DNA from: an uncultured Candidatus Nitrosopumilus sp.
GTDB lineage: Archaea; Thermoproteota; Nitrososphaeria; Nitrososphaerales; Nitrosopumilaceae
Assembly (NCBI GenBank): GCA_951812655.1
Contig: OX638319.1
Coordinates: forward strand, 806,001-870,000
DNA length: 64,000 nucleotides
Direction of reading: 5' to 3'
A program made the position numbers and the translations under genes. Shown piece by piece: positions 3,584-32,100 of the stretch; the stretch's first letter is position 1; the number at the start of each line of letters is the position of its first letter. The notes below the pieces were generated by a model that saw nothing but the letters and a program-made list of their open reading frames with translations, was not told the origin of the DNA and did no database searches.

Positions 3584-4597
3584 CTAGGCTTTTGCCACTT
3601 TAAGCAAGTCTGCAATCTTGATGTTCATTCCAAATCGATCCTCGTGTTTTTTCATGTACAGGAAAATTGACATAAAGTCCGGTAGTGCTTTCAAGAAGCT
3701 GAAATCCTTGTGAATTTTTGCTCTGACGAAATTAAACACCTTTGCGTAAACCTTGTAATGTTTTTCTATGGCCTTTTCATATGCCTTAAAGTCATGCATG
3801 TTTTCCAGGAAAATCTCCACACATTGCATGGATGGAATAATCCCTTCGCCCAGCAAAGCATATACTGTCCCAATCGATTCTCCTACCCCTACCACTTTAC
3901 CTGAATAGTATGGTTTGCATCTGTCGGGAGTTGCTAATCTAATTGGTCGTCCCTTGGTGGCAACAATTTTTCCGCCATGTTTTTCCAAAAATGCATCAGT
4001 TGCCTTTATGTGATTCTTGTTATAATCACCCGCACCAATATGTGCAAAGTTGTCCCCTAGCGGGAAATACCAAAAGTAGCCTGACATTCCGGGAAATGGT
4101 TCTATGTAGAAGTCATCATATGGCACGCCATTCTCATATTCCACCTTGTATTCGTACGTTGGTAAAAAGAAGTCCTCTTTCATTTTTGGTAGATACACTC
4201 TATGAAATCCTGTACAGTCCACAATCATGTCGTATTCTTTTTCTAACTCTTCTATGCTTGGAGGTGGTCCGTAAATTATTTTACAATCTTTAATGAAATC
4301 TTTGATTAGTCCAAGTTTGTTGTATGTACATAATCCTTTCAGACCAATATCAAATTTTACATCATCATTCATCTTGACATGCATGTTCTTACCGTCATGA
4401 ATCAAAAAGTCGTCAAAGTTTCTGCCTGTCTTTTTGCAGAATCCGTCTAGTACTGATTTTATAGTTCCCCAAGCACAGATTGAGTCATGTCTGTCTTCAG
4501 TCATTCTTTCGTATCCCACGGCCTCATGTTCTGTGTTCTTCAGTCTGGCCATGAGATAAGATCCTGCTACGCCCATTCCCATCACTGCAATCTTCAA
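3584..4597 (-). CDS. Geranylgeranyl-reductase-like FAD-dependent oxidoreductase
   Basis: A 337-residue flavoprotein, starting at TTG 4597 so that the Rossmann strand KIAVMGMGVAGSY is at the very N-terminus. A longer reading adds 20 residues without family character. Besides this FAD-binding motif, a second flavin-contact segment (GVGESIGTVYALLGEG) lies near residue 250. The layout fits geranylgeranyl reductases, which saturate isoprenoid chains of archaeal membrane lipids or quinones. The substrate cannot be read from sequence; other aromatic-hydroxylase-fold enzymes are possible. It converges with the YkgJ gene, 5 nt apart. Confidence 0.7.
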   Translation of the reverse strand: MKIAVMGMGVAGSYLMARLKNTEHEAVGYERMTEDRHDSICAWGTIKSVLDGFCKKTGRNFDDFLIHDGKNMHVKMNDDVKFDIGLKGLCTYNKLGLIKDFIKDCKIIYGPPPSIEELEKEYDMIVDCTGFHRVYLPKMKEDFFLPTYEYKVEYENGVPYDDFYIEPFPGMSGYFWYFPLGDNFAHIGAGDYNKNHIKATDAFLEKHGGKIVATKGRPIRLATPDRCKPYYSGKVVGVGESIGTVYALLGEGIIPSMQCVEIFLENMHDFKAYEKAIEKHYKVYAKVFNFVRAKIHKDFSFLKALPDFMSIFLYMKKHEDRFGMNIKIADLLKVAKA

Positions 4598-4698
4598 GAT
4601 GACTGGGATTTCGTTATGCCTAATAAAAATACTGTCTGGAAATAGTACTGGTGACAAATTCTATGGTGAGTTCTTCTAGTAGGAAAAAGTAGTGCCCC

Positions 4699-4706
4699 TT
4701 AAATAT
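4699..4706 (+). promoter_or_regulatory. TATA box of the candidate structured RNA
   Basis: TTAAATAT is preceded by a GC-rich patch and followed about 26 nt later by the start of the structured segment. No protein start lies at this distance, which is why I assign it to an RNA. Confidence 0.4.
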
Positions 4707-4727
4707 CAAAATCGTGTAGTTTAGATA

Positions 4728-4872
4728 GAAAGGTGGTTTGTCGTATGAATGCAATCGTTTCAGGCCTTAAGACCCTCGCTGTCATCAAGAAATAACCATT
4801 TCTGATCTTAAGCGAAAGAGATGTCATCAGTCCTCCGGGGATTGATCTTAAACTCTGTCCTTTCTGTTTTCC
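4728..4872 (+). ncRNA. Candidate structured non-coding RNA, family unknown
   Basis: This stretch is part of a 366-bp gap without a protein gene. It contains a perfect 6-bp hairpin, AGAAAT-AACC-ATTTCT (4788-4803), enclosed by a 7-bp stem CTTAAGA/TCTTAAG (4766-4772 with 4806-4812). An 8-bp hairpin follows, ATCAGTCC-TCCGG-GGATTGAT (4826-4846, one G-U pair). A pyrimidine-rich tail (4855-4880) could end transcription. Local GC is higher than in the flanks. I see no RNase P, SRP or known riboswitch signature. Ends are estimates. It could be a stand-alone RNA or the long leader of the GNAT gene at 4964. Confidence 0.45.
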
Positions 4873-4963
4873 TTAATTTTACATCTGGTTAAATTTTAAA
4901 ACTTAATTTATAATCCATATTTTTAATCAAGTCTTAAAGCATAAAACATGTTAACAAATTTGC

Positions 4964-5380
4964 ATGCTATTAATTCGAAAAGTATCTGATCACATGATCA
5001 TTAGAGATATTCGAATTAAAATTTTCAATGAAGAATTGGGATTGTCAAACAGTGACATATTTGATGATGATGACAAGAAGTTAGATCAGTTTTTGATTAT
5101 CTATGATGGTATCAGTATAGGTTCTTTTAGGCTGAGAGATGTGGGTAACTCTTTTAAGATTGAGAGGATGGGGATTTTATCAAAATATCGATCTAAGGGA
5201 TTTGGGAAATTATCTTTGGATGAAATTAAATCACATTCCAAGATGGTAAATAAATCTAAAATCATACTTGATTCCATTTATGATGTGAGAAATTTTTATG
5301 CAAAATTTGGATTCATTGAGTTCGGTGATGTCTACTATAAGGTGGGAATACCTCATGTGAAAATGTATTTTGATGTGTAG
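4964..5380 (+). CDS. GNAT family N-acetyltransferase
   Basis: A 138-residue protein with the GNAT fold. The acetyl-CoA pyrophosphate loop is seen as a variant R/QxxGxG/A, here RSKGFGK near residues 77-83. The C-terminal Y-A-K-F-G-F-I element that closes the domain lies near residues 109-115. Such enzymes transfer an acetyl group from acetyl-CoA to an amine; the acceptor is unknown. A TTTATAAT element lies about 55 nt upstream. An internal methionine at residue 11 could be the true start, giving a protein starting MIIRDIRIK. Confidence 0.75.
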   Translation: MLLIRKVSDHMIIRDIRIKIFNEELGLSNSDIFDDDDKKLDQFLIIYDGISIGSFRLRDVGNSFKIERMGILSKYRSKGFGKLSLDEIKSHSKMVNKSKIILDSIYDVRNFYAKFGFIEFGDVYYKVGIPHVKMYFDV

Positions 5381-32002: not shown

Positions 32003-32100
32003 GCCGGGGTCGCCTAGCCTGGTAGGGCGCGCGCCTGGAAATTATTAACCATAAAGCGCGTTCTCGCAAGGGAACGGGAGTTCAAATCTCCCTCCCGGCG
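32003..32100 (+). tRNA. tRNA-Ser (GGA) with anticodon-loop intron
   Basis: Acceptor GCCGGGG/TCCCGGC, T arm GGGAG/CTCCC and a long type-II variable arm (TTCTC-GCAA-GGGAA region) identify a serine tRNA. The anticodon stem CGCGC/GCGCG encloses CTGGAA, a 14-nt intron (32041-32054) and A, so the anticodon is GGA and the intron is at 37/38. The mature length is 84 nt. Discriminator G, no encoded CCA, and a T6 run follows. Confidence 0.92.

Follow-up and report, generated by a model that had tools for sequence, protein, structure and literature searches.

Does the intergenic gap of about 366 bp that separates a GNAT acetyltransferase ORF from a divergent, reductase-like one, read directly from a 64,000-nt stretch of an uncultured Candidatus Nitrosopumilus genome (the window, whose positions are used here), encode an RNA of its own, or is it a long regulatory leader of the GNAT gene? 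An earlier note made from the letters of the window had offered both readings. The analysis described here favours the former: positions 4727-4865 (+) are probably a stand-alone gene for a three-module non-coding RNA (ncRNA), which would act in trans, its likeliest role being to bind a protein.

The locus and its predicted structure

The element consists of three tandem copies of one hairpin module of about 38 nt, enclosed by a closing stem (Table 1). In each module, a conserved 3x4 internal loop, GUC/CUUA, separates two helices. The gap, the TATA box, the enclosing 7-bp stem, two hairpins and the pyrimidine-rich 3' end had all been pointed out in the earlier note and are all present in the sequence. 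The two hairpins described there as perfect are parts of modules 2 (6 bp, AGAAAT-AACC-ATTTCT) and 3 (8 bp, ATCAGTCC-TCCGG-GGATTGAT), the latter with one G.U pair; module 3 lacks the apical sequence common to the other modules. The structure was thus drawn correctly as far as it went, but the third, 5'-most hairpin at 4736-4773 was missed, as were the internal loop that all three hairpins share and the further copies at other sites in the genome. The raised GC content claimed for the element is borne out, at 0.42 against 0.34 and 0.19 on its two flanks.

Table 1. Features of the triple locus, in window positions. R1 is a covariance model of one module, and its E-values are rough.
Feature	Positions	Strand	Basis or remark
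Divergent reductase-like ORF	3584-4657	-	probably starts near 4600
Conserved upstream promoter element TAGTAGGAAAAAGTAGTG..	4669..4698	+	30-locus alignment
TATA box TTAAATA	4699..4705	+	about 28 nt 5' of closing stem; kept in 30 aligned homologues
Predicted transcription start	about 4725-4728	+	from TATA box position
Closing stem, 5' arm AGAAAGG	4727..4733	+	folding; cognate-duplex test, moderate support
Module 1, GUUU-GUC-G..hairpin..C-CUUA-AGAC	4736..4773	+	R1 match, E 9e-7
Module 2, CGCU-GUC-A..hairpin..U-CUUA-AGCG	4777..4814	+	R1 match, E 1e-6; includes AACC-loop hairpin
Module 3, AGAU-GUC-A..hairpin..U-CUUA-AACU	4819..4854	+	R1 match, E 5e-5; includes TCCGG-loop hairpin
Closing stem, 3' arm CCTTTCT	4859..4865	+	folding and cognate-duplex test
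Pyrimidine/T-rich 3' end	4866..4881	+	possible U-rich archaeal terminator, inferred
GNAT ORF	4964-5380	+	Pfam Acetyltransf_10, 3.9e-10

With the TATA box at 4699 as its promoter, the gene would give an RNA of about 140 nt that ends in the T-rich stretch, a place at which one homologue (G006) has a run of eight T. Folding of the single sequence gives -37.8 kcal/mol against -30.3 +/- 3.5 for shuffled sequences (z -2.2, or -2.5 with one extra base included), and 3 of 200 shuffles were as good. This is only modestly better than chance, and the proof of the structure is comparative.

Homologues and covariation

A blastn search with positions 4690-4900 against 100 relatives matched 42 of them, of which 41, counting the own genome, fall within the same genus-level group; the lone match in another family, with an E-value of 0.007, is probably due to chance. 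In an alignment of 30 loci, the module consensus sequences are GUCU-GUC-G..C-CUUA-AGAC, CGCU-GUC-A..U-CUUA-AGCG and GAGCU-GUC-A..U-CUUA-AGCUC for modules 1, 2 and 3, respectively. Since the lengths of the element among homologues are spread over all three reading frames, it is not coding.

RNAalifold, given the alignment as its sole input, recovered the same three domains, with changes on both sides in 16 of 35 pairs among 30 complete triples. Standard pairs make up 97.0% of the pair cells in these triples, and the covariation score is 0.232, compared to 0.143 +/- 0.007 for shuffled alignments and about 0.04 when the alignment is slid. Pooling the modules as one family (56 sequences) brings paired cells to 97.6%, both-side changes to 8 of 9 pairs and the score to 0.631 against 0.234 when shuffled, a signal that collapses upon a one-column slide. 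The internal loop is nearly invariant across modules and its flanking pairs are conserved, while the helix sequences covary. At the pair adjacent to the loop, A-U predominates in modules 2 and 3 and G-C in module 1, a compensatory change (42 AU, 14 GC, none broken). Two of the alignments (A1, A2) were built on sequence; A3 was fitted to the structure, and its counts therefore lean towards it.

In nearly all homologues, the two arms of the closing stem can pair, with versions such as AGAAAGG/CCUUUCU, GAAAAGG/CCUUUUC and GAAAAGACAA/UUGUCUUUUC. Cognate duplexes were stabler than non-cognate ones in 19 of 30 cases (p 0.05), which lends this stem moderate covariation support. Conservation of the stems in relatives, proposed earlier as a check, is thus found together with covariation above shuffled controls. 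By these comparisons, the triple is established as a conserved, structured, multi-copy, non-coding element.

Neighbouring genes

The location upstream of an acetyltransferase, although true here, is incidental. In most members of the genus, the gene beside the triple encodes a nitroreductase (Pfam 1.9e-13) on the same strand, shortly 3' of the closing stem. A GNAT gene is found there in the own genome and in G053, another gene in G006, and in G058 there is no gene on the strand of the triple. The RNA is thus present in all four without the nitroreductase. Conversely, G137 and G152 have the nitroreductase, preceded about 25-30 nt before its ATG by the TATA-like TTAAATTTGG, without the RNA. The simplest reading is that TTAAATTTGG serves as a promoter for the nitroreductase alone, before which the RNA would be a separate gene.

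These arrangements bear on the alternative that the element is a cis-acting leader or riboswitch for whichever gene comes next, with a ligand or a protein bound to the modules. The closeness of the same-strand nitroreductase in most relatives would fit such a role, and the repeated modules recall tandem riboswitches. However, the RNA is still there in genomes that have lost or replaced the nitroreductase, and the nitroreductase retains its promoter where the RNA is missing. RNA and downstream gene have been gained and lost independently, so that synteny speaks against a leader of the GNAT gene, the second reading of the earlier note, or of the nitroreductase gene. A leader or riboswitch would have a fixed tie to one downstream gene or pathway and no end of its own before the gene; no such fixed tie is seen here, and a cis-acting role of this kind is quite improbable.

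Distribution and single-module genes

In the own genome, R1 matches the triple and single copies at 1529033, 1633529, 233619, 1241306 and 761471, plus a weaker one at 956630, making five or six singles in total. A retrained model gave rough E-values of 4e-11 to 1e-9 for four of them. Matches to the one-module model occur in 84 of the 95 genomes examined from the genus (between 1 and 20 modules per genome) and in 101 of 250 genomes sampled across the class; all of the latter but one belong to the Nitrosopumilaceae, other genera included, and those named include Nitrosopumilus, Nitrosarchaeum and Nitrosotalea. Among the 250, the model search found other families empty, and it did not find the module in several Nitrosopumilaceae members, GC-rich ones among them. 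Within the genus-like group g34, the RNA has a scattered distribution: it occurs in G271, G305, G309, G379 and G383, but did not turn up in G180, G224, G238, G254 and G273, among others. Presence in a “Nitrososphaeraceae” genome (G231; L179, L199) was rejected: the contigs that carry its matches are 72-83% identical in DNA to Nitrosopumilaceae contigs over up to 8 kb, and they are therefore probably mis-binned. One relative of higher GC content (L259, G025) has a decayed triple at the syntenic position. IMG/VR yielded two pattern matches, one of them weak by the covariance model; a 1.3-kb contig (L240, IMGVR_UViG_3300003579_000246) has a weak module match of 24.7 bits. There are three modules per RNA in the triple, two in L095 and one in the singles.

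The single copies are hairpins of about 55-70 nt preceded by their own conserved promoters. A comparison of 70 oriented copies placed these promoters, ..ATCAGTATGATCTAAATACTATTTT.. or TTTCTTTTATGA.., at near-fixed spacing 5' of the hairpin. Class A has ATCAGTAT-n-CTAAATACTATTTT and, at a nearly constant distance 3' of it, UUGGAACUGUCACCAAGUAACUAAUCGUUUUUGGUCUUAAGUUCCAA; class B has TTTCTTTTATGA with other conserved upstream sequence, followed by GCAAUUGAGCUGUCACC..GGUCUUAAGCUCUUUUGC; and class C, from genus g28, has a longer closing stem followed by GGATTTTTTT. One group ends in a T-run, with GGUGCCGGATTTTTTT directly 3' of the closing stem. The strict class A promoter pattern has five matches in 60 genomes, four of which are followed by a module. 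In some relatives, the upstream element of the triple reads GTAGAAATCATTAGTA, followed by TTAAATA (30-locus alignment), and this form resembles the upstream element of class A, which hints at common control of the triple and the class A singles.

A representative 54-nt hairpin (typed, consensus-like) folds with a z of -4.9, and a copy from the own genome with -5.2. The outer stems of the single copies extend beyond the model by a mean of 5.4 bp when the arms are cognate, compared to 3.3 bp for non-cognate arms. A convergent gene is faced by 22 of 36 single loci, and the neighbours are unrelated and differ between classes, which again counts against a leader. Seven of the 36 lie less than 100 nt 5' of a same-strand ORF, so some single copies could act in cis. 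In g28 (L092, L101, L119), the T-run-bearing single is flanked by two short ORFs which, judged by eye, resemble phasins, and a link to storage granules is possible.

Multiplicity also invites the reading that this is a REP- or MITE-like repeat or mobile element, in which the hairpin matters as DNA. Six singles of the own genome (L031, L034, L036, L037, L038, L040) have about 250 bp of upstream sequence in common, and most of its singles have an upstream 12-bp inverted repeat, ATGCAATGGTGC ... GCACCATTGCAT, around about 80 bp. These shared sequences suggest that the copies arose by duplication of whole units. A pattern search for inverted repeats upstream of the singles gave no match, its gap range probably being too long. 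However, both the triple and the classes of singles keep the same gene neighbours across many species, conserved TATA boxes stand on one side at near-fixed spacing, and many of the alternative helix pairs are G.U, favouring an RNA helix over a DNA one. A mobile repeat is therefore very unlikely, and a conserved family of stand-alone structured RNAs is the reading held with high confidence.

Comparison with known RNAs

No Rfam 15 family matches positions 4600-5000 at gathering score, and a cut-off of E<=10 brought up nothing meaningful; the best chance-level matches reached 16.8 and 15.7 bits against thresholds of 46 and 75. The earlier statement that no known RNA signature could be recognised thus holds, and an account of the module RNA was not found in the open-licence papers searched. 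The family is absent from Rfam and is a new RNA family of Nitrosopumilaceae. The new structured RNA suspected before has accordingly been substantiated by compensatory stem changes, conservation in relatives and the lack of an Rfam family. Elsewhere in the window, positions 32003-32100 (+) gave an Rfam tRNA match (40.5 bits, 98 bases) unreported by ARAGORN, which is probably an intron-containing tRNA gene.

The archaeal guide RNAs are likewise small hairpin RNAs, with up to three hairpins in the case of H/ACA, but they have variable pockets, whereas the module family has one constant loop. A box H/ACA guide was rejected since the internal loop is nearly invariant in all modules, leaving no variable guide pocket; a conserved ACA at a fixed place is also lacking in the alignment. 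A box C/D guide was rejected on the boxes, UGUCAUC/CUUA in place of RUGAUGA and CUGA, with no k-turn boxes on the transcribed strand. The loop-adjacent pair covaries between A-U and G-C, unlike the sheared G.A pairs of the C/D kink-turn, and on inspection the internal loop fits neither a k-turn nor a bulge-helix-bulge.

With its covarying structure, its own promoter and no coding frame, the element has the features of a stand-alone structured ncRNA, for which there are precedents in marine microbes. Yfr103 of marine picocyanobacteria is a very abundant, multi-copy, lineage-restricted, structured RNA whose function is unknown (PMC5069720). It shares with the module family the multi-copy, lineage-restricted and structured nature and a palindromic element upstream of the promoter, but it is about 300 nt long and cyanobacterial, and no sequence kinship is claimed. 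Tan1 of marine group II Euryarchaeota is a formerly unknown, lineage-specific structured ncRNA of marine archaea too, but it is 229 nt long, comes from another phylum, and no modular repeat has been described in it (PMC5069720).

Proposed function

Homology, structure, multi-copy dispersal and independence from neighbour genes are established by the comparisons above. As to function, one site is repeated one to three times per RNA, at several loci with differing promoters, which suggests a protein-titrating RNA. It is only the repetition of one motif that suggests this mechanism. The RNA would act in trans via the conserved internal loop, to which an RNA-binding protein would most likely bind, and the triple would be the multivalent form that titrates or scaffolds. 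CsrB and RsmX-Y-Z are protein-titrating RNAs with repeated hairpins offered to one protein. The module family resembles them in that one hairpin motif is repeated both within an RNA (several copies are found in the triple and in L095) and over stand-alone genes with differing promoters, and in that the genes are not bound to one neighbour. It differs in being archaeal and in having the internal loop GUC/CUUA instead of GGA in the apical loops, where the alignments contain no conserved GGA that would go with a CsrA partner. By analogy, the family may be called Csr/Rsm-like in style but not in membership, and a protein-binding or titrating module is put forward tentatively.

A dedicated RNA-binding protein for the GUC/CUUA module, titrated or assembled by RNAs of one or three modules from differently regulated promoters, is conceivable but doubtful. 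A search for a partner by co-occurrence (two families, sampled genomes) found none, and RRM_1 was absent everywhere. In G000, G051, G112 and G136, a third LSM paralogue is located 7-8 kb from the triple, and most of the sampled genera that lack the triple lack this paralogue as well. However, three LSM genes are also present in members of the genus that do not have the RNA (G055, G029, G119, G021), making the third LSM a clade marker. It was thus rejected as the partner. This third LSM-domain gene, G000:C1:802682-802870 (in L249), lies outside the window, 8 kb upstream of the triple on the same strand.

The RNAs might instead be trans-acting sRNAs that pair with mRNAs as antisense, the hairpin serving just for stability or chaperone binding. 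Like many bacterial sRNAs, they are small, stand-alone and multi-copy, with several promoter classes. However, the most conserved bases are in the internal loop between helices and in the short apical stems, and the single copies are almost fully paired, with nearly no free tail for seed pairing, which makes a base-pairing role unlikely.

Significance

Few cells in the ocean are as numerous as the Nitrosopumilaceae, which drive nitrification. To our knowledge, little is known about their regulatory RNAs. The Rfam-ready family described here has an unusual modular make-up of one, two or three modules. Covarying, present in several copies across the whole family and preceded by conserved promoters, it offers a concrete, testable entry to archaeal RNA regulation and raises the question of a global RNA-based regulator in ammonia-oxidising archaea. 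If the proposed mechanism is true, the module RNAs would belong to a previously unrecognised RNA-protein regulatory system of these organisms.
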